From the IMG/VR virus record IMGVR_UViG_3300037189_024508, positions 1-33,636 of that record: a stretch of 33,636 nucleotides of DNA; one strand, 5' to 3'. The translations under genes and the position numbers were made by a program. The notes below the pieces were generated by a model. It had not been told where the DNA came from. It saw only the letters and a program-made list of their open reading frames with translations, and searched no databases. Source of the DNA: a virus. Positions 1-33,636 of this stretch are shown piece after piece; position 1 is the first letter of the stretch; every line of letters begins with the position of its first letter.

Positions 1-87
1 TATTCTGTATATTGCGACATGTCAACGAGTTCAGACGATGATGCTGTTACAGTCGACGCTGTTGTTGGAATGATTGCGTTGGTAAAA
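1..87. repeat. Direct terminal repeat, left copy (circular join)
   Basis: Bases 1-87 are identical to 33550-33636. The 5' part of one gene lies at 1-113 and its remainder at the right end in the same frame, so the repeat marks a circular or circularly permuted molecule rather than a biological duplication. An exact 87-base overlap is also what a de Bruijn assembler leaves when it closes a circle, so the length itself probably means nothing biologically. Confidence 0.93.
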
Positions 88-1970: not shown

Positions 1971-2198
1971 TCATCCTCCTTTGTATCTTTCTAGAAACGC
2001 AACGAGCTTTTTCAGCGCATCTTCCTCGTCTTCCTCTGTATCCTCGTCTTCTGCGTCCTCCACTGCATCCCACTGTATCTTACACACAGCAAAACGCTGT
2101 TCTAACTTTGGGAATTCGTCAATCATCACTTTATCCCCCATGCACCGTGTCAAAAATAATTCTTCCTCTTCTGCTTGTATCGGTTTCGGCAACGGCAC
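1971..2198 (-). CDS. Small acidic protein between MuF and protease
   Basis: This 75-residue protein starts at a GTG that overlaps the MuF stop (TAGTG), with GGAGGTG seven bases upstream. It holds an Arg-Cys-Met-Gly-Asp...Glu-Phe-Pro...Gln-Arg-Phe-Ala-Val-Cys...Gln-Trp pattern at about residues 18-43. I recognise that pattern from small phage proteins found next to portal and protease genes, but no function is established. A run of Glu and Asp follows (about 48-60). The two Cys could bind metal, which is only a guess. Confidence 0.8.
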   Translation of the reverse strand: MPLPKPIQAEEEELFLTRCMGDKVMIDEFPKLEQRFAVCKIQWDAVEDAEDEDTEEDEEDALKKLVAFLERYKGG

Positions 2199-2984
2199 TA
2201 TGCTTCACCTCCTTGTGTCTCTTCTGCGTACTCGTATCCCACGGCACATCGACAGTTGATGCTTTCCTTTGCAGGCAAAGAGAAATCGGCTGGGTATTTG
2301 CCACGTGAACCATTGACATCGAATGATTCATTTAGCTTAATTGCAGGATGATTCGCCATGGCTCGATGTGAGTCACGTGTGCTGTCGTCGAATGTTGGGA
2401 TCCATACTTTCCGTAGCTTAGGTGTTGTCTGTTGCGCTCCTGCCAATGAGCCAAAGTTCGATGCGCTAACCACTTCTGTTCTTGCTATTGTGCGACTGCG
2501 ATTCGGGATGATTTTATCGAGATACAGTTTATCCAGTGATTCGGTCATCGTGAGGATACTCGCTCCCTCTGCCATGGAATCAATGATGATGTTTTTTATA
2601 TCAACCTTTGTAGTTTCAGTGATTAGCGCCACTTTCTCTGCAGACGTTTCGGTGATGTACTTTAAGATGTCATCGGTCGTAAAGTCGAACGCTTTTGTTT
2701 CGCTTGCTCCTGTGGATTTAACTCGTGACTGTATATCCTGATACGTTCTTGCTCCAAAGTGACGGATAACGTCTTTGTATATCTTTTGAAACAGCTTAAC
2801 AAACCGCTCTTTGTCATTTTCGATGATCTCCAAAACTTCATTGTTAAAATTATCTTTGTTGTACGTAGCGTTGATGATTTTTTTTCGCTGTTCATTGAAA
2901 GCGTCTGCAACGTCTTTCGTTACTCTATCATAAAATGGATTTCGCTGTCGCTCAAACTGTTTGAAAAGTTTTTTTTTGCGTCAA
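2198..2984 (-). CDS. MuF-like head morphogenesis protein (probably made only as portal fusion)
   Basis: The frame is open from about 2984 to the TAG at 2200-2198 and gives roughly 260 residues. The C-terminal half has the Mu gpF signature: Arg-Thr-Ile-Ala-Arg-Thr-Glu, then Asp-Asp-Ser-Thr-Arg-Asp-Ser-His-Arg, and Ile-Asn-Cys-Arg-Cys-Ala near the end. MuF proteins bind the portal inside the procapsid and support minor head assembly. No ATG, GTG or TTG occurs in this frame before the TTG at 2833, and that TTG has no ribosome binding site and falls inside protein-like sequence. The upstream portion (Arg-Asn-Pro-Phe-Tyr-Asp-Arg-Val and on) therefore looks translated by a -1 frameshift from the portal frame at 2968-2974. 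Confidence 0.85.
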
Positions 2985-4194
2985 GGCTCTTTTGCTCGCT
3001 TTCACTTGGTAACGGTTTTTCGATTGCGACGCCGATATCATTGACGAACACATCTCCGTCCTGCACCTCTTCATAGTCCAGTGCGTAACGTGCTTCGTTG
3101 CGCTTGATTAGTCCACTTTTCCATAGCTGAACAGTGCGTTTAGTGAGTGCGTCTTGAGATTCTTTGAGTGCCTGTATTCTTGATAGGTCATACACGAGTA
3201 CGAGGTTATCGGCGTATCTCGGGAGCAGGTCGCTTTGTAGCTTTTGCTTCATGTGCTCCAAGTATCGGGGGATAACCGTATTTTCCCAAAAGCTTTTCAC
3301 CGCTTCACTAAAGTTGCTGTACGTTTGCCCCTCTGGATCTCCTACAAGTTGTGATGGAACGCCGAAAGCAGAACATATCTCCGTGCGGTTTAATTTCCGC
3401 TGATTCAGAAAGTCCATGTCAACACTCGTTAACCCGATAGGTTGATACGTTGCACGGTCTGCATTGAGGACTAGTGGGATTCTTGCGTTGCTCCCTCCGC
3501 CGTATCGGCGCTTCCACTCATCACGAAGATTGTCGATTAGCTCTGGTGATGGATTCTGCACCGTGAACACGCCAGCTGGAACACCGCCGTTTTGTAGTGT
3601 TGATTTGTTCCAGTTCACCGCTTCGTTCTCCGTATCAATGGTACGGCTTAGCGCGCGAATCGGTGATAATCCTCCGTAAATGTCTAGTGGATCACTGAAT
3701 TTGCTCCACAACACCTCTTCTTTATCGTAGTATATTGTGCTATAATTATCGTATTTGTACCCCGATACAAACTCTTCTTTTGATGGGATGGGCTTCATGT
3801 AGTGCGGATACAACGGCACTATTTGTGTGGGCATCGATGGATTCACATATTCGGCGTAAAATTTCCCTTCCAGTGCTAGATACGTTGCCCATAAATCAAT
3901 AAAATCACGTGATGACATAAATGCATTTGCTTTGGTATTTAGCAAATCCAGTATTGGATGCTGCTCAATCTCAATGTTTCTACCGCCTCTGCCTTTACGG
4001 TATAGTAGCCACGGCACCGATGATGTTGCAGACGATATCTGCATAACGCACGAATACACCCAGACGACTTTGTTATATGCTTCGGTGATAAATTGCTTGT
4101 CTTTCTGCGTCGCCCAATACGCCTGCCCATAGCTACCATCTGAAACGTAGCGATATTTTTGCTTCTTTTTGAATTTGTCCCAAAACGCTGCCAC
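2920..4194 (-). CDS. Portal protein (0-frame product)
   Basis: The portal forms the dodecameric ring for DNA entry at one vertex. In the 0 frame it is 424 residues. I chose the GTG at 4194, because AGGAGGTG lies eight bases upstream; the ATG at 4242 lies inside the terminase gene without a good site. Portal-like segments include Lys-Val-Val-Trp-Val-Tyr-Ser-Cys near the N-terminus, Tyr-Leu-Ala-Leu-Glu-Gly-Lys-Phe-Tyr, a Gly-Gly-Leu-Ser-Pro-Ile region and Phe-Gly-Val-Pro-Ser-Gln-Leu-Val-Gly-Asp. The last 16 or so residues after the A9 run are low-complexity and look like out-of-frame read-through. Shifting -1 at 2968-2974 gives a 665-residue portal-MuF fusion. Confidence 0.92.
   Translation of the reverse strand: MAAFWDKFKKKQKYRYVSDGSYGQAYWATQKDKQFITEAYNKVVWVYSCVMQISSATSSVPWLLYRKGRGGRNIEIEQHPILDLLNTKANAFMSSRDFIDLWATYLALEGKFYAEYVNPSMPTQIVPLYPHYMKPIPSKEEFVSGYKYDNYSTIYYDKEEVLWSKFSDPLDIYGGLSPIRALSRTIDTENEAVNWNKSTLQNGGVPAGVFTVQNPSPELIDNLRDEWKRRYGGGSNARIPLVLNADRATYQPIGLTSVDMDFLNQRKLNRTEICSAFGVPSQLVGDPEGQTYSNFSEAVKSFWENTVIPRYLEHMKQKLQSDLLPRYADNLVLVYDLSRIQALKESQDALTKRTVQLWKSGLIKRNEARYALDYEEVQDGDVFVNDIGVAIEKPLPSESEQKSLDAKKNFSNSLSDSEIHFMIE
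2968..2974 (-). other. Putative -1 ribosomal frameshift site, portal to MuF
   Basis: A run of nine A followed by C on the minus strand (2977-2968) contains the heptamer A_AAA_AAC in the portal reading frame. A -1 slip enters the MuF frame at once, and the whole 2198-4194 interval then divides evenly into 666 codons. The same heptamer is used for the tail chaperones at 29100-29106. A one-base homopolymer error would produce the same picture. Confidence 0.6.
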
Positions 4195-4208: not shown

Positions 4209-5426
4209 CTAGAAATATATCGCTGTTTCGTCGGTAAAACATTCTTCTAGCGCATATCTCATAGCATCCAATAAGTGGTTATCCTTGTCAACGGGCTTAG
4301 CGATGTAGATGCCGTTTTTGTCTGTTGCATACTGATACAGCTGTATCTCCCTGATAAAGTTTACGCATGATGGGTGTATAATCACCTCGTGTCTTTTTAT
4401 CCATTGGATACCGAAGTTTATTGAGTCCTTGCCTTTTTTTGCAGGCTTAGCGCGGATGCCTAGCGTCTGCAACTCTCGTATGCTTTTCGGCTCTGCGCTG
4501 TCGCATGTGATGTACTCCGCACCAATGATAGAGTGAAGACGTGTAGCAATTGCGTCGTTCATCATCTCTAGCTCTATGAATTCGTCGAATACAAAAATTC
4601 TCTTGTTTTTCTTGTCGTAGTGTATCCGTATATATGCCGTTGGATCCGATGCAAAGCCAAAGTCTAGTCCGTTGTATATGTTATCGAATGTGCTAGTGTC
4701 GAAAGCGTCTACTTTATAACTCGTGTATATCGTTTTCCCCAAGACTCCCCAGTTTCCCAACGTGTATACGTTATAGAAATAGGTGTCCTTTTCATTCTCC
4801 ATTGTGTAGCGGTCTTGGTCAGTGAGAAAGTCGTTATCCTTATACGTTGTTTTAAGTATAAACAAATTATCGCTACGATACGGTGATTCCGTGTAGTGTG
4901 TGAAGTATTCCTTGTACAGCCAGTGGGTCTGATATATGGGATTGAATGATAGTATCAACCGTTTCGGCGATGCGCTTTCTCCACGTAGCCTTTTTCGCAA
5001 CTGCATCACATCGTTATAATCCGTTTCGGTAGCTTCCTCAATCCATATATCGGTGAGCACCCCTTGTGTTGGGGTGATGGACTTCACCTTTTCCGTATCG
5101 TCAAGCCCTGCGGATAGTATTTGTGCTCCATTGATACAGGTGAATGTGAGGTCTGTTTTGTTGATGGTAAAAAGGCGTTCCATTTTGAAAGCGACGATTG
5201 CTTTGCAAAGTTCGTTAAACAGCGACTTCTTTATCGTTCGTGCAGTTTTACGGCACACAAGATAGTTACGCCGAAAAGAGACAACGTCAATGATACACCT
5301 TTGCGCGAGAAAGAAACTTTTTCCACTAGATGAACCGCCGAAAAATATTTGCGTCTGCGTCGTGTCACCGAGATACGGGATATACGCACGGTTAAACCGC
5401 CGAGCCGTAATCTCATACTCAATCAT
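4209..5426 (-). CDS. terL: Terminase large subunit, PBSX-like
   Basis: This 405-residue ATPase-nuclease packages DNA into the prohead. Walker A is Gly-Gly-Ser-Ser-Ser-Gly-Lys-Ser at residues 30-37, and Walker B is Ile-Trp-Ile-Glu-Glu-Ala at 127-132. The C-terminal RNase H-like nuclease shows Asp in Gly-Leu-Asp-Phe-Gly-Phe (about 250), Asp in Ile-Thr-Cys-Asp-Ser-Ala (about 310) and Asp in His-Leu-Leu-Asp-Ala-Met-Arg-Tyr (about 390). The ATG overlaps the small-subunit gene by 8 bp. The TAG stop overlaps the portal ribosome binding site. The sequence is most like the phage terminase family typified by PBSX XtmB. Confidence 0.96.
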   Translation of the reverse strand: MIEYEITARRFNRAYIPYLGDTTQTQIFFGGSSSGKSFFLAQRCIIDVVSFRRNYLVCRKTARTIKKSLFNELCKAIVAFKMERLFTINKTDLTFTCINGAQILSAGLDDTEKVKSITPTQGVLTDIWIEEATETDYNDVMQLRKRLRGESASPKRLILSFNPIYQTHWLYKEYFTHYTESPYRSDNLFILKTTYKDNDFLTDQDRYTMENEKDTYFYNVYTLGNWGVLGKTIYTSYKVDAFDTSTFDNIYNGLDFGFASDPTAYIRIHYDKKNKRIFVFDEFIELEMMNDAIATRLHSIIGAEYITCDSAEPKSIRELQTLGIRAKPAKKGKDSINFGIQWIKRHEVIIHPSCVNFIREIQLYQYATDKNGIYIAKPVDKDNHLLDAMRYALEECFTDETAIYF

Positions 5427-7876: not shown

Positions 7877-8185
<309 letters not shown>

Positions 8186-12440: not shown

Positions 12441-12817
12441 TTTGTATTACCTTTTTTTTGCTTTACGGGAAGTACTGGACTGTAAAGATGTAGCCTTTCT
12501 TTTGTTTTGAGTCCGTTGTAGTAGCTAGCATCATCGCTAAACGCATCCAAGTGCTCCGCAAAAGTTTTAATAGTTGCCTTTCTATGGTATATCGCATGCT
12601 CTTTTAGCAGTATATGCGCTAAAATAAAATCATTCGCTGCGCCGATATAATCGTACTCATCGTACATATCCTCGTCATACAGCTTATAACTTTTTAAGTA
12701 GTTTTCTGCGTGCTCTATAAATTTTTGATAGTAGTCTTTATCGTAGCTTACCTCAATAGTTGCGGTAACTGTTGTTTTTTCTCCGCTTGACTTGACTTCA
12801 TATTTCTTCATCTTCAT
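12437..12817 (-). CDS. Unknown protein
   Basis: This 126-residue protein starts at the ATG 12817, which overlaps the NrdJ stop codon (ATGA). An in-frame ATG two codons later is also possible. The sequence begins with an alternating pattern suited to beta strands (residues 3-25), then is helical and rich in Asp, Tyr and Lys, with a Tyr-Asp-Glu-Asp-Met-Tyr-Asp-Glu-Tyr-Asp segment near 50. No family recognised. Translational coupling to the reductase is seen; a role with it is only inferred. Confidence 0.75.
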   Translation of the reverse strand: MKMKKYEVKSSGEKTTVTATIEVSYDKDYYQKFIEHAENYLKSYKLYDEDMYDEYDYIGAANDFILAHILLKEHAIYHRKATIKTFAEHLDAFSDDASYYNGLKTKERLHLYSPVLPVKQKKGNTK

Positions 12818-14973
12818 CGTATCGGGCACGCCCCTCCCTCGCATGATTCGCTGCCTACGTCTAAAATCTCTCCATTGTCGTATTTCCGTAGCATTTTCGC
12901 ATTAAAAGGCTTCATCATTGCACGTAGCTCTTCGTATTGCTCCCTCGTGCACGCCTCATACGGCGCAAGTTGATACGTTCCACCATCGTGAGCAAGAAAG
13001 GATATCCCGATGTAATCGTCCCATATCGCATGTATCTCCTGTGCCGCCGTAGACCATTCACTGTCTAACATGTGTATCGTGTTGCTCGAATTGTGATCCG
13101 TGTAGTGCTTTTGGAAGTCTAAATATACTTGTAGCTGTTGCTTAAAATTTACGCCGTTCTTGTGCTTTTTTGCAGGGGAGTGTACAGGAAAGTCGATAAC
13201 AAGAGTTGTAGCCGTGCCCCACTCCTGCCCCACCTCAGAACTCACTCTCCATCCTAAATCAATCGCAACTTTCGCCAACGGATCATGCGCATTGATACGG
13301 ATGCGACGGATAAAATATTCACTGTGAGAAAAATGTAAACCACTTGATACTCCTCCTGCTACCTGTGATAACGTTCCTTCAGGCTTAACTGTCGTCACTA
13401 GCAACGGGCGATTCACCCCTAGCTCCTCCGCATATGCGCTCGCCTCCTCGTTCGCTGTTTTACGCAATTTTGCTAACAGCTCCGCTGTTGCCCCCGCGTC
13501 CTGAACCCCTGTAAGACTCACGCCAAGCAAGCGATCACGTTTTTGCACAATATCCCAATTCTGCATTTCCATGTCAGCTAGTGTCATCCGTAGCCCTGCT
13601 CGTGTAGACAACGCTTGCGCTGCCAGTAAATCGTCTTCACTGTCCCACTGCGCCGCCAAGTTTAGCGTTGTCAGGTTGCATACACCGTAGCTGTCAAGGA
13701 TGATCTCAACGCAGGGATTGAGCCCTTTCGCATTTGGTCGCCGTTTTCCTGCGGACTCTAGATTAACAAACCCCGGCTCTCCTTCTAGCTTCATGATATC
13801 GAAAAGCACCTCCAGCATCTCCTGCGACGGCTTTTCACGGAATGCAATCGAATTGTTACTCATGCGCCGATGATGTAAATGCATTTTTGCTTGTGGATTC
13901 GCTACCAGTGCGTCGATTGTAGGCGGAACAAAAACGCCTAAGCTCTTCAGCTTTTCCCCGATTTCCACGACAAGGCGTTGACTCTCCTCTCCCCATATGC
14001 CGTTGATTCCGAATTTTGCCAAAATGCTCTCCCAATCGTCTGCATCACATAAAAAAATCTCCGCTGTGCGCCTAACCCCTCCACATACTACGTTGTTCCC
14101 TATCAAGTTGCCGATGTCAAGCACATGTACAGGTCTCACCTGCCCCTCTATCGGCGCCGCCGTAGTAGCGTCCAACTCCCCCGCGAGCATCTTTTCAATG
14201 CTTTGAAACATTGTTTTGAGTGGCTCGTGCCCACTAGCCGTTCCGCCGAAAACTTTCAACCGTTTACCTTTTGGTCTTACATTGTCGTAAATAAGTGTCA
14301 GTGTTCCGACGCTTTCCATTTTGGAAACACTTAGCACCCAAACAAAGTTTCTAAAAGCGTCGACCCATCCTTCTTTGCTGTCGCCGATAGTGATGGTAAC
14401 GTCTTTCCCGCTCCACTGGATATCCCCAGCTTTTCCGCTAACCCCCGCGAATTCATAGTCTTTATGCACAATGCGTCGAGGAAGATGTAGCTTCGGTAGC
14501 AGTGCAGCGTTCTCCTTGGAGCATGAAAATCCTACTCCCGTACCTATCAGTAACAAATAAAACAGGTCACACATGTCTTCCCAAGTTTTTATCTCAACAA
14601 ATGCGCAGTTAAAATTACTTAAAGGATACTTTTTTGACGCCTCTGTTCCGCCTACCCACAACGTGCGTCCTGATAAAAACTGTTTCAGGTTGAAAATGTT
14701 GTGAAAAAGCTCCTGCGCCTCCTTTTCCATGCGCCATAGTGCTGCATATGTCACGCCCCACTTGCTTATTGTGGACTGCGATCTCCTGTGCGCCCGCTCC
14801 AAGCTGATGTTGTACTCAACGGCTCGTATACATGTCTCCTTCCACGTTTCACGGCGACCCTTTTCAGGTAGCCACCGTGAATATGTGCGGTAATAGACAA
14901 AACTTGATAACTCATTCATATGCTCAGGCGCATCGGGATACTGCTGTAAAAACTCTTCACTTAGAAAACCCAT
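12814..14973 (-). CDS. nrdJ: Ribonucleotide reductase, class II (adenosylcobalamin)
   Basis: This 719-residue enzyme reduces ribonucleotides to deoxyribonucleotides. It resembles the monomeric triphosphate reductase of Lactobacillus leichmannii (about 740 residues). The radical-site motif Asn-Pro-Cys-Val-Glu lies at 419-423. The candidate dithiol pair is Cys123 (Asn-Phe-Asn-Cys-Ala-Phe) and Cys432 (Tyr-Gly-Val-Cys-Asn-Leu-Thr). The C-terminal redox shuttle is Cys-Glu-Gly-Gly-Ala-Cys at 711-716. Start chosen at the ATG 14973 behind AAGGAG. No intein or second subunit is seen. Being oxygen-independent but B12-dependent, it implies a host with cobalamin uptake or synthesis. Confidence 0.95.
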   Translation of the reverse strand: MGFLSEEFLQQYPDAPEHMNELSSFVYYRTYSRWLPEKGRRETWKETCIRAVEYNISLERAHRRSQSTISKWGVTYAALWRMEKEAQELFHNIFNLKQFLSGRTLWVGGTEASKKYPLSNFNCAFVEIKTWEDMCDLFYLLLIGTGVGFSCSKENAALLPKLHLPRRIVHKDYEFAGVSGKAGDIQWSGKDVTITIGDSKEGWVDAFRNFVWVLSVSKMESVGTLTLIYDNVRPKGKRLKVFGGTASGHEPLKTMFQSIEKMLAGELDATTAAPIEGQVRPVHVLDIGNLIGNNVVCGGVRRTAEIFLCDADDWESILAKFGINGIWGEESQRLVVEIGEKLKSLGVFVPPTIDALVANPQAKMHLHHRRMSNNSIAFREKPSQEMLEVLFDIMKLEGEPGFVNLESAGKRRPNAKGLNPCVEIILDSYGVCNLTTLNLAAQWDSEDDLLAAQALSTRAGLRMTLADMEMQNWDIVQKRDRLLGVSLTGVQDAGATAELLAKLRKTANEEASAYAEELGVNRPLLVTTVKPEGTLSQVAGGVSSGLHFSHSEYFIRRIRINAHDPLAKVAIDLGWRVSSEVGQEWGTATTLVIDFPVHSPAKKHKNGVNFKQQLQVYLDFQKHYTDHNSSNTIHMLDSEWSTAAQEIHAIWDDYIGISFLAHDGGTYQLAPYEACTREQYEELRAMMKPFNAKMLRKYDNGEILDVGSESCEGGACPIR

Positions 14974-15211
14974 TTTTGTGTTTCTCCTTTTCAAAATCGT
15001 TGCTCAATTCAATCGCATAATCCAAGTAATCTTTTCCTTGTATTCTATAAGTTTTCATAAAGCTGTAGTCTCTATTTTTAGACCACTCTAAGTAGTTTGT
15101 TTCCTCGCAAGTCATGATTGGATGTAGCTTTTCAGGGTGTTTTTTGAACTCCTTTAAAAACTTTTTCACATTAGGATATTTCTGTAAAAACTCTTCGCTT
15201 AGAGACAACAT
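14957..15211 (-). CDS. Small protein resembling the NrdJ N-terminus
   Basis: This 84-residue protein opens with Leu-Ser-Glu-Glu-Phe-Leu-Gln-Lys-Tyr-Pro, and NrdJ opens with Leu-Ser-Glu-Glu-Phe-Leu-Gln-Gln-Tyr-Pro. The DNA is also similar across that stretch (14935-14970 and 15175-15210), so a partial duplication of the nrdJ 5' end is likely. The rest differs: it has Trp-Ser-Lys-Asn-Arg-Asp-Tyr and an acidic-basic tail. The ATG at 15211 (or GTG at 15214) follows an AGGAGG site. It overlaps the nrdJ start by 17 bp. Function unknown. Confidence 0.75.
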   Translation of the reverse strand: MLSLSEEFLQKYPNVKKFLKEFKKHPEKLHPIMTCEETNYLEWSKNRDYSFMKTYRIQGKDYLDYAIELSNDFEKEKHKNGFSK

Positions 15212-15330
15212 CACCTTTTTCCTCCTCTGTTCAGTTTTTCAAACTGCTCTTGTGTCAGTCTTCGTCTTGCTATCCTGACCGCTAAAAAATTCAATGCTAC
15301 GGCGATATAATAGAAGAGTCGTTTCTTCAT
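15211..15330 (-). CDS. Small membrane-like protein, 39 residues
   Basis: The ATG at 15330 is preceded by GGGAG, which overlaps the stop of the ThyX-like gene. The TGA overlaps the start of the next gene. Residues 4-20 (Arg-Leu-Phe-Tyr-Tyr-Ile-Ala-Val-Ala-Leu-Asn-Phe-Leu-Ala-Val) could form a short membrane helix, followed by a strongly basic stretch (Arg-Arg-Arg) and a Gln-Glu-Gln-Phe-Glu tail. Tight packing between its neighbours supports it as a real gene. No function is known. Confidence 0.6.
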   Translation of the reverse strand: MKKRLFYYIAVALNFLAVRIARRRLTQEQFEKLNRGGKR

Positions 15331-26873: not shown

Positions 26874-28777
26874 CAGTATGCACTCCCAACCCTGCCACGT
26901 ATCATATCAACCATCGTTGGAGCGATCGTCTGTGTTATCCTGCGTCCGTCAAGATAAATGCTTGTTTCACGTGTTCCGCCAAAATCACCTAAACGACTGA
27001 GAGGTATAACTGCTTCACTGCCCGCTTCTCCAATCATAGCAAGTGTTGGCGACGTGATGATTCCGCCGTCTGCGAGAAATGGTATTTTATCAACGACATT
27101 TTTTATTGTATTTGTTACAACGGTTAAGCCTTCCGATGCCAAGGATTTTGCTTTTTCAAACAAACTAATAAACTCGCTTACTTTTTCCCTAACCGTGGCA
27201 ATCAATTTTGCAATGTTGTCAAATGGCGCTTTTGCTATTGCGTATAAACCACTGAAAACTCCTGAAAAAATTGCCTTTATTCCTTCCCATGCTTTTTTCC
27301 AGTCGCCTGTAAAAACTCCTGTAATAAACGTCATCAAACCAATATAAGCTGTTTTCATTCCTTCTAAAACTGTTTTAATAGTTTCGAATGCTGTTTTGAA
27401 ATTATCCGAAAATGTTCCAATTAAATACGCCGATATTGGCATAATAACTTTTGTATAAAATGCTTCCATCAATACGTATAAAGCTTTGAACTGTACAACA
27501 AAAATTGTCAATATAAATGTTCCTAATGGCAATAAAATTTGTTTCCACAAAAATGTCAGTACAGCGCTTAACGCCTCTATGGTTGGAGAAAAAGTTTCGG
27601 ACAAGGATTTTCCAAATGGAACAAAAATATTATTCCACAAAACTTTTAAATATTCTCCCAGTGGCACTAAAACATTGTTCCATAAACTTGTTGCAACAGT
27701 TGCTATTTGAGTCAGAACAGAATCGACTGTACCTCTGAAGTTTTCATTTGTGTTGTAAAAATACACGAATGCTGCGACAAGCCCTGCAACCGCCGCTAAA
27801 ATAAGCGAGATCGGATTTGTTGCTAAGAAACTCATCGCCGTACCAATCGCTTTTACACCGGAAACCATTGTCATGAATCCTGCTGATATTGATGGCAAAA
27901 CAGCTAAAACAGCTCCGAACGCCAAAATTACAGGGCCAAGAGCGAGTGCCAATCCTGCAAAAATGATTATTTTCTCTTTTGTTGATGCTGATAAATTTGC
28001 AAATGAAGTCAATAAGTCGTTGACGAATGTAACAACTTGAGTAAAAACTGGCAGTATAATCGTTCCTATTTGAACGCCAATTTCTTTCATTGTTTCGCCA
28101 AAAATTCTCATTTGGTTGGCGGCGCCATCCGATGTTCTTCCAAAGTCCCCTTGCGCATTTTTTGTTGCGTTCATAACGTAAGCGTATCTTAGGTTTATTT
28201 TTTCAGCTTCAGTCATATCTTGAACATTTTCATTTATACCCTGACTAAGCGCAAATGTTTCTAAATTTGTTTCAGTCATAACAACACCAAGCATTTTTAG
28301 TGATTCTGTTTCCCCCGTAAAAATTCCTGCTAGTGCTCCCATCGCTTGCTTTGCGTCGACATTCTTAAAACTCGCCAAATCGCCCCCGAGTTGTGTCAGT
28401 GCCATTGACATACCAGAGGCGTCTTTTTGAGCCAACCCCATCGAAGTCCCCATATCACCAAAAAGCGCCGCGGAATCAAGTGCTGATTGTTGTGCCAAGC
28501 CCATAGATTTCAATGAATTTTTTGACCAGTCTTTAACCTCTTGAGCCGAATCGCCAAAAGACACATTGATTTTATTTGTTGTTTCTTCCATGTCACTGGC
28601 CAGTTTTATTGATGCTCCACCGGCTGCCAACAAAGGAAGAGTTATAACTTTTGATAAAGTACCGCCTATTGTAGCCAACCCTGATCCTAAGGTGGTGAGC
28701 TTGCTCTGCGTTTCCTCGAACCCTTTGTTCAACTCTTTAAAGTCAGACGATATCTTCACAAATAACTCTTGTATCAT
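26873..28777 (-). CDS. Tape measure protein (TP901 type)
   Basis: This 634-residue protein sets tail length. Residues 1-200 match the TP901 core: Leu-Ala-Ser-Asp-Met-Glu-Glu-Thr-Thr-Asn-Lys-Ile near 60, Ala-Ala-Leu-Phe-Gly-Asp-Met near 100, and Ser-Asp-Gly-Ala-Ala-Asn-Gln-Met-Arg near 215. Two hydrophobic stretches lie at about 265-300 and 325-345. The C-terminus has Gly-Gly-Ile-Ile-Thr-Ser-Pro-Thr-Leu-Ala-Met-Ile-Gly-Glu-Ala-Gly-Ser-Glu-Ala, a common tape-measure end. At about 1.5 angstrom per residue the tail would be near 95 nm. The ATG overlaps the gpT-frame stop. Confidence 0.95.
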   Translation of the reverse strand: MIQELFVKISSDFKELNKGFEETQSKLTTLGSGLATIGGTLSKVITLPLLAAGGASIKLASDMEETTNKINVSFGDSAQEVKDWSKNSLKSMGLAQQSALDSAALFGDMGTSMGLAQKDASGMSMALTQLGGDLASFKNVDAKQAMGALAGIFTGETESLKMLGVVMTETNLETFALSQGINENVQDMTEAEKINLRYAYVMNATKNAQGDFGRTSDGAANQMRIFGETMKEIGVQIGTIILPVFTQVVTFVNDLLTSFANLSASTKEKIIIFAGLALALGPVILAFGAVLAVLPSISAGFMTMVSGVKAIGTAMSFLATNPISLILAAVAGLVAAFVYFYNTNENFRGTVDSVLTQIATVATSLWNNVLVPLGEYLKVLWNNIFVPFGKSLSETFSPTIEALSAVLTFLWKQILLPLGTFILTIFVVQFKALYVLMEAFYTKVIMPISAYLIGTFSDNFKTAFETIKTVLEGMKTAYIGLMTFITGVFTGDWKKAWEGIKAIFSGVFSGLYAIAKAPFDNIAKLIATVREKVSEFISLFEKAKSLASEGLTVVTNTIKNVVDKIPFLADGGIITSPTLAMIGEAGSEAVIPLSRLGDFGGTRETSIYLDGRRITQTIAPTMVDMIRGRVGSAY

Positions 28778-29405
28778 GTTTTGTCACCGCCTTTTTTCTC
28801 TTCGCCGTACGACGCTACGAACTGTTGCAAAACTTGCAACTGTTCTTGCCAAGTCTGCTTTTTTTTCTTTTCTTGCGGCATGAAGTCGCTTACCTTAAAT
28901 GGCGTCCCTTTCGAGCGATTCGCATTTGCTATCACGCTACACACAAGGGCAAAACGATAGTGTTCCCGTTTCGCCCCTGCTTCGTACGATTTATTTAAGT
29001 AATAATATTCTTTTAACGTAAGCCGCCACGCATCACGAGGGGTTAAGCCGAAGTTTGTAACGGCATGCGCCCATATCTCAATAACGCGTGGCGTTTTTAG
29101 TTTTTTGATGATGAATCCGATTTTTCGCCGTCAACGTGTGAAGAACTTGTTATAACATTGTTCAATTGTTTAGCTACGTCGTTCATATTTTCTGCGGTTA
29201 TAAGTTTCCCGACTTCTTTTAACGTTAGTGTTTCGTCATCGTGAAGAAAACAGGCCCACAGTAGCGCCCTTAACCCGATAGCTCCGGCGTTTTCCCCGAT
29301 CTGAGTTGCGCTTTTTCCAGTCGCTTCCTCATACGCCGCCATTGCATTTAAGTCAAATATTAGTTTTCTTGGTTTGTCTAAATTAATAATAATATCTCTT
29401 GTCAT
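28774..29405 (-). CDS. Tail assembly chaperones G and GT (frameshifted)
   Basis: The 0-frame product (29405 to 29097) has 102 residues and ends Ser-Ser-Ser-Lys-Asn-stop. At 29106-29100 the heptamer A_AAA_AAC sits just before that stop. A -1 slip continues into an open frame ending at 28774 and gives a 210-residue GT product. The added part contains Leu-Thr-Leu-Lys-Glu-Tyr-Tyr-Tyr-Leu and Val-Cys-Ser-Val-Ile-Ala-Asn-Ala-Asn-Arg. The T frame has no good start of its own, and its stop overlaps the tape-measure ATG. G and GT coat the tape measure while the tail tube polymerises, in the established arrangement of siphoviruses. Confidence 0.9.
29100..29106 (-). other. -1 frameshift site in tail chaperone gene
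   Basis: The heptamer A_AAA_AAC is in the G frame, followed directly by TAA. The position matches the conserved G/GT frameshift. The tight link between slip site and stop codon favours this reading over a sequencing error. Confidence 0.88.
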
Positions 29406-33266: not shown

Positions 33267-33636
33267 CTAGTCTAAATACCTGTCTCCGTCACGGGCAACC
33301 ATAGCGCAAACGCCAGAAGCACCGTCTGCTTTTTGCACGTACAGTCCAAGGTAACGGCGACCTTCTGTGATTTGTGAGTCACGTAGATTAATGTTGATGA
33401 AACGCGGGTTTGTTTGTGATACACCCACAAACTGCGATGCAGTAATGATTGTTGCAACGGCACCGGCCCACGTTGGAGAAGTGGATTCCCAAACACTAAC
33501 GGTGATGACTCCTGCTGTCGTTGCTGTCCCTTGTGCAACGATCGCAAGATATTCTGTATATTGCGACATGTCAACGAGTTCAGACGATGATGCTGTTACA
33601 GTCGACGCTGTTGTTGGAATGATTGCGTTGGTAAAA
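33267..33636 (-). CDS. Small capsid-associated (decoration-like) protein, body
   Basis: This is the C-terminal part of a 131-residue protein that starts at position 113 across the join. The full protein begins Met-Asn-Arg-Leu-Pro-Glu-Lys-Val-Ile-Phe-Thr-Asn and is rich in Thr, Ala, Val and Ser with Val-Trp-Glu-Ser-Thr, Phe-Val-Gly-Val-Ser-Gln and Arg-Tyr-Leu-Gly-Leu-Tyr-Val. This is the make-up of a beta-sandwich that could sit on the capsid surface. No named family is recognised. It directly follows the capsid gene and precedes two glycosyltransferases, so it is one plausible acceptor of the sugar. Confidence 0.8.
   Translation of the reverse strand, partial: FTNAIIPTTASTVTASSSELVDMSQYTEYLAIVAQGTATTAGVITVSVWESTSPTWAGAVATIITASQFVGVSQTNPRFININLRDSQITEGRRYLGLYVQKADGASGVCAMVARDGDRYLD
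33550..33636. repeat. Direct terminal repeat, right copy
   Basis: This is identical to bases 1-87. It should be counted once: the unit genome is 33,549 bp, and coordinates 33550 onward continue at 1. Confidence 0.93.

Follow-up and report, generated by a model that had tools for sequence, protein, structure and literature searches.

Portal and MuF genes at the junction

The window (the whole stretch of DNA that was analysed, 33,636 nt, virus record IMGVR_UViG_3300037189_024508) carries a portal gene and, directly downstream of it, a reading frame for a MuF protein, both on the minus strand (Table 1). The first and last 87 nucleotides of the window (1-87 and 33550-33636) form a direct repeat, as expected for a complete circular or circularly permuted genome. 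The portal protein matches the PF04860 profile (E 2e-69) over residues 46-373, and as the candidate slip site lies at residues 406-409, the portal domain is complete before it is reached.

Table 1. Features of the portal-MuF junction and of the tail-chaperone site in the window
Feature	Position	Strand	Remarks
Portal ORF, 0 frame	2920..4194	minus	GTG start with AGGAGG; stop TAA 2922-2920
A9 run, candidate slip site	2969..2977	minus	identical in 17/17 distinct window-clade relatives
MuF ORF, -1 frame, 258 aa	2198..2974	minus	no start codon in first 47 codons
Dual-frame overlap	2920..2967	minus	0-frame tail NFSNSLSDSEIHFMIE; -1 frame KLFKQFERQRNPFYDR
TTG, sole early MuF-frame start candidate	2831..2833	minus	judged not used
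Tail-chaperone A_AAA_AAC	29100..29106	minus	six A only; -1 frame open 108 aa

The original prediction described a portal frame that runs into nine consecutive A and a MuF frame that is open from there for about 45 codons with no start, and this is what the junction looks like, 47 such codons being counted. In the portal frame the run reads GAC GCA AAA AAA AAC TTT and contains two in-phase heptamers, A_AAA_AAA (2977-2971) and A_AAA_AAC (2974-2968). The portal frame ends at a TAA 16 codons past the run and the +1 frame stops after 5 codons, while the -1 frame from 2974 (AAA AAA CTT TTC AAA ...) stays open down to 2198. A -1 change in the run joins the two frames exactly, as had been proposed, into 666 codons including the stop, that is, a fusion of 665 amino acids. 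Early in the MuF frame the TTG at 2833 is the sole start candidate; it lies 47 codons in, is not conserved and shows no Shine-Dalgarno match, which bears out the claim that it has no ribosome binding site; a full AGGAGG is present for portal (4194) and for the gene after MuF (2198).

Two further observations were made elsewhere in the window, on the minus strand. A second A9 is found at 8053-8061 between listed genes. The small ORF 14957-15214 starts with LSEEFLQKYP and the large, ribonucleotide-reductase-like ORF 12814-14994 with LSEEFLQQYP, and to judge from this similarity the pair is possibly a partial N-terminal duplication of the large ORF.

The -1 product is a MuF protein

Residues 125-245 of the -1 product match PF04233 (Phage_Mu_F) with 45.1 bits (E 2e-11, curated cut-off 29.6). 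AlphaFold2 modelling of the product with ten relatives gave a mean pLDDT of 90.4, and the predicted structure is confident from its first helix onwards. This helix spans residues 2-35 and lies wholly upstream of TTG 2833, so that an internal start there would cut the fold. Among predicted viral structures the top hits are for the most part minor-capsid and head-morphogenesis proteins of phages; the comparison with solved structures returned neither a sequence match nor a fold match for the window's MuF.

In several relatives the MuF frame extends into a variable C-terminal domain. Two of these extensions contain PF15644, papain-fold toxin 1, a glutamine deamidase (L001:2356-3105; L017:5881-6615), and two have no identified domain (L010:4450-5478; L015:5887-6837). 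Toxin domains at the C-terminus are known from the MuF polymorphic toxins of temperate phages (PMC5576092); no toxin-like extra domain is present in the MuF of the window.

Conservation of the junction in the window's clade

The search of viral contigs yielded 35 loci at first and was extended afterwards; most of the relatives are metagenomic contigs. Every one of the 17 distinct window-clade junctions carries A9 with a C behind it and has MuF in -1, and in each the portal stop comes exactly 16 codons later; MuF identities in the clade are 55-97%. The stop is retained as three different codons (TAA in eight junctions, TAG in seven and TGA in two), and no relative within the clade closes the frame by A8 or A10. 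Conserved MuF sequence starts at the A9 run, before any start codon. No MuF start that is consistent across the clade and has a ribosome binding site was found: candidate starts vary among the relatives, and the only one with a ribosome binding site is an ATG preceded by AGGA in L010, 21 codons in. Within the clade the comparison of relatives supports the originally predicted joining of the two frames by a -1 change.

The 48-nt overlap of the two frames shows 2.6-fold fewer differences per site in the clade than the 60 nt upstream of it. Among the pair differences within the overlap, 543 hit the third codon position of the -1 frame (the second in the 0 frame), versus 312 and 285 for the other two. 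At the level of nucleotide comparison this demonstrates constraint on both frames, and it points to translation of the MuF frame from the run onwards, upstream of every potential start, with the 0-frame stop being kept.

Junction runs in the wider family

In more distant relatives, among them the cultured phages GBK2 and Silence, portal and MuF share one continuous frame, and 28 of these continuous-frame relatives keep an A9, A10, T9, T10 or T7 run at the portal-MuF junction. A10 is found in the L024 clade and in L237, A9 in L028-L030, L034, L142 and L164, and T9, T10 or T7 in the clade around Geobacillus phage GBK2 and Bacillus phage Silence. The T7 sites occur in three lineages (L144, L151 and the L185 group), each in T_TTT_TTT heptamer phase. 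In the fused run-bearing relatives, the shifted frames close at a median of 3 codons (-1) and 3 codons (+1), compared with medians of 7 (-1) and 10 (+1) at other codons of the same fused ORFs, a comparison whose p-values ignore relatedness. Three further lineages are arranged like the window, with the 0-frame stop 3 codons past the run and MuF in -1 (L144 with T7, L180 with T9 and L201 with A9).

On a portal tree of 94 rows, 62 of which are fused, a run is present throughout an A clade (32/32) and a T clade (12/12) and in single lineages besides. The run state changes five times on this tree, and the run-bearing rows switch between the fused and the separate state at least four times. No junction run is present in 34 of the 62 fused rows (e.g. 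JGon-2020a), which means that a plain fusion is viable too and that the family can do without two products. Similarly, when phrog_2662 was followed in the genomes of one bacterial order, all four scorable fused prophages lacked a junction run.

In the records of GBK2 and Silence the fusion is annotated simply as portal protein. Both phages carry T9; the fused frame of GBK2 reads SNFFLNVK there, and its -1 form would end in SNFFFKR. An AlphaFold model of the whole GBK2 fusion has a mean pLDDT of 70.8 with much of the portal domain poorly modelled and was used for the linker only; its low-confidence linker (residues 393-426) holds the slip site at residue ~421. About 115 extra residues separate portal and MuF in L024 (4250-4620) and at the equivalent positions in L025-L027 and L055-L068; this insert is conserved in that clade and has no Pfam match.

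Run frequency relative to chance

We counted runs in 106 non-redundant loci, in which the portal-MuF linkers amount to ~31 kb and all other sequence to ~740 kb. Runs of at least nine A or T numbered 47 in the linkers versus 9 elsewhere, and none lay inside a portal or MuF domain. The linkers are rich in Lys or Phe, and the probability of a run of at least nine in a linker with its own amino acids and codons ranges from 0.05 to 0.57 per locus (synonymous-codon shuffles). A run at any one locus is thus nothing unusual; what counts is the joint pattern. Where a run starts in a wobble position, the Ala, Gly, Val, Leu, Asn, Ser, Asp, Arg and His codons concerned all end in the run's base. Multiplied over 18 representatives, the own-codon frequencies come to ~10^-7.6, a value to be taken as a guide only, as the representatives were picked among run-bearing loci and their relatedness is ignored.

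Downstream RNA structure and the tail-chaperone site

A search for a downstream stem had been suggested with the original prediction; none was found behind the window's A9 when two stretches were folded without pseudoknots (z 0.1 and 0.4). By the same kind of folding, z ranges from about -1.4 to +1.8 across the window's clade; the relatives folded alongside the window gave z about 0, except for L010 (z 1.7), whose downstream RNA is less stable than its shuffles. In the wider survey nearly all A9, A10 and T9 junction sites were without downstream RNA structure; L201 and L180, with A9 and T9 and MuF in -1, have modest structure (z about -2.5). The T7 site of L151 lies in a continuous frame and is followed by very stable RNA (4946-5045, z -5.3) and an immediate UAA in -1.

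The same genome contains a tail-chaperone pair of the lambda G/GT type, with its -1 site noted at 28774-29106 (minus strand); the first ORF of the pair matches the tail protein phrog_2115. As the original prediction had stated, it uses the heptamer A_AAA_AAC that also occurs at the portal junction, in the same direction, and the shift adds an extension of 108 residues in -1. At the tail-chaperone site, which has six A, a strong stem follows directly downstream (-34.2 kcal/mol, z -4.0); the portal site, with nine A, lacks a stem. In two relatives whose tail-chaperone site was scanned, L262 has A_AAA_AAC and L263 has C_CCA_AAC in the same place.

Discussion

One gene, two predicted products

The anatomy of the junction, its conservation, the excess of runs in the linkers and the switches of arrangement together give good support to programmed slippage with two products. 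It is therefore very probable, as far as sequence comparison can tell, that A9 is a programmed slippage site through which one gene yields free portal as well as portal-MuF. Without a slip, the 0 frame would yield free portal that ends 16 codons past the run; the 665-residue fusion would come from the minority of events in which a slip occurs, so that mixed portal rings may carry a few covalently attached MuF domains. Slippage itself, its rate and the incorporation of the fusion into rings are steps that we infer. In relatives with a continuous frame the outcome would be reversed, slippage at the run producing the short form, a truncated portal, as in dnaX.

The MuF frame could also have lost its connection to portal by accident, through one A more or fewer in the assembly or through decay of MuF into a pseudogene. 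Homopolymers are indeed error-prone and the relatives are mostly metagenome contigs; however, the same A9 recurs at every one of the 17 distinct junctions, which come from many samples, with MuF sequences behind it that are conserved at 55-97% identity and with the 0-frame stop kept, and an overlap constrained in both frames speaks against a pseudogene. Error or decay is thus extremely improbable, and we reject an assembly error on the conservation of the A9 junction. A MuF protein translated separately, whether by re-initiation at the portal stop or from a start within its own frame, with the run being incidental, would correspond to the usual arrangement, and an ATG lies at the portal stop of L075, L078, L082 and L086, four distant relatives with separate genes. 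The window, in contrast, offers no ATG, GTG or TTG in the MuF frame near that stop, and the candidate starts of its relatives differ, almost none of them having a ribosome binding site. The start at TTG 2833 would drop the first predicted helix, and the conserved MuF sequence begins at the run; this start was rejected for its position after that helix, its lack of conservation and the missing Shine-Dalgarno match. Separate translation of MuF is accordingly very improbable.

Given slippage, it has to be decided which machine slips. The original prediction had the ribosome shift by -1 at A_AAA_AAC to make a small amount of fusion next to free portal; the -1 joining at the A run is supported, the ribosome at this heptamer is not established, since there is no stem and the runs have nine to ten residues. 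A classical programmed ribosomal frameshift, in which the ribosome would slip by -1 on A_AAA_AAA or A_AAA_AAC and the polymerase would take no part, is favoured by the two heptamers, both in phase and kept in 17/17 relatives, by a downstream frame that is conserved from the slip site on with the 0-frame stop retained, and by the use of A_AAA_AAC at the tail-chaperone site of the same genome. Moreover, the T7 sites fit the T_TTT_TTT phase, and an IS-element A_AAA_AAC has been proven to work without an established stimulator (PMC4066793). Against it stand the absence of downstream structure in the window and its clade (as folded without pseudoknots, and a stimulator being usual rather than universal), the length of the runs, which at mostly 9-10 residues exceed a heptamer and always include the preceding wobble base, and the early closure of the +1 frame in fused relatives, for which -1 ribosomal slippage has no need. 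On balance, frameshifting by the ribosome alone appears somewhat unlikely. The other machine is RNA polymerase, which would add one A on the A9 template and thereby join the MuF frame. Nine A or T are enough for highly efficient slippage by bacterial RNA polymerase, and in Thermus dnaX this slippage is combined with stops in both shifted frames (PMC5009743). The length of 9-10, the equal use of A and T, the stops in both frames of fused relatives and the lack of structure favour polymerase slippage, and the conserved unit is the 9-10 A/T run and not the bare heptamer, a pattern that suits the polymerase at least as well. The modest structure at the long-run sites of L201 and L180 counts against the polymerase, as do the T7 sites, which are short for it; the T_TTT_TTT phase of the T7 sites and the strong stem in L151 make the ribosome the likelier agent at least there. 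We give about an even chance to polymerase slippage as the sole or main mechanism, and regard slippage by both machines as distinctly unlikely.

Implications of the proposed slippage-made portal-MuF fusion

SPP1 gp7, a MuF protein, is bound to the portal at one to two copies per capsid (PMC5576092), and without it only about 25% of SPP1 virions are infectious (PMC6316719). How so few MuF copies get set at the portal is not obvious, and MuF can carry toxins. A fusion made by slippage, if true, would fix the MuF dose on a statistical basis and make the portal ring asymmetric; if ~1 portal in 10 bore MuF, a 12-mer would hold ~1 MuF. We tentatively propose, as a view that falls a little short of probable, a dosing device shared by several tailed-phage lineages: polymerase slippage on A9/A10 or T9/T10 would set the small number of MuF copies per mixed ring, in some relatives of a MuF with a toxin-like domain, and evolution would flip between slippage that makes the fusion and slippage that makes free portal. 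The model predicts two portal forms in the cultured phages GBK2 and Silence, where the records list one protein. The A9, A10, T9, T10 and T7 sites are a natural set for separating polymerase from ribosome slippage.

Comparison with known systems

Portal-MuF fusions do exist in some phages, as stated in the original prediction, and those described are unusual plain fusions (PMC7302621). The fusions of Microbacterium clusters EA and EB (PMC7302621) and the SPP1 proteins including gp7 have the same two domains in the same order as the window; EA and EB encode them in a single continuous gene and SPP1 in two genes, whereas here both forms would come from one gene. Searches of the open-access literature did not turn up a published portal-MuF slippage site; the main text of a survey of prokaryotic frame transitions (PMC3711429) makes no mention of portal, and neither do the available sections of the recoding review (PMC5009743).

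In the case of dnaX (PMC5009743), one gene gives a long and a short product at a homopolymeric or A-rich slip site, by a ribosomal -1 shift in E. coli and by transcriptional slippage on nine residues in Thermus thermophilus, and in this it resembles the run-bearing phages. The Thermus gene has nearby stops in both shifted frames, as have the fused relatives, and the reversed arrangement, in which slippage gives the long form, is described there for dnaX too. Here, by contrast, a virion protein is concerned, the A9/T9 run and both orientations occur inside one phage family, and the products are predicted.

Frameshift-made C-terminal extensions are also known from T7/T3 gene 10, Lactobacillus phage A2, Listeria phages and SPP1 gp17.1* (PMC5009743, PMC6316719). 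Extensions of the T7/T3 gene 10 type give a fraction of the subunits an extra C-terminal domain, as proposed here, and relatives may do without the frameshift. Unlike in these systems, the protein to be extended is the portal and the extension is MuF, which is normally a separate gene, and the site is a long homopolymer with no stimulator structure. The portal-MuF junction would thus belong to a known kind, the frameshift-made C-terminal extension of a virion protein, and what would be new is where it sits, that it is reversed within a single family and that it probably uses homopolymer slippage.
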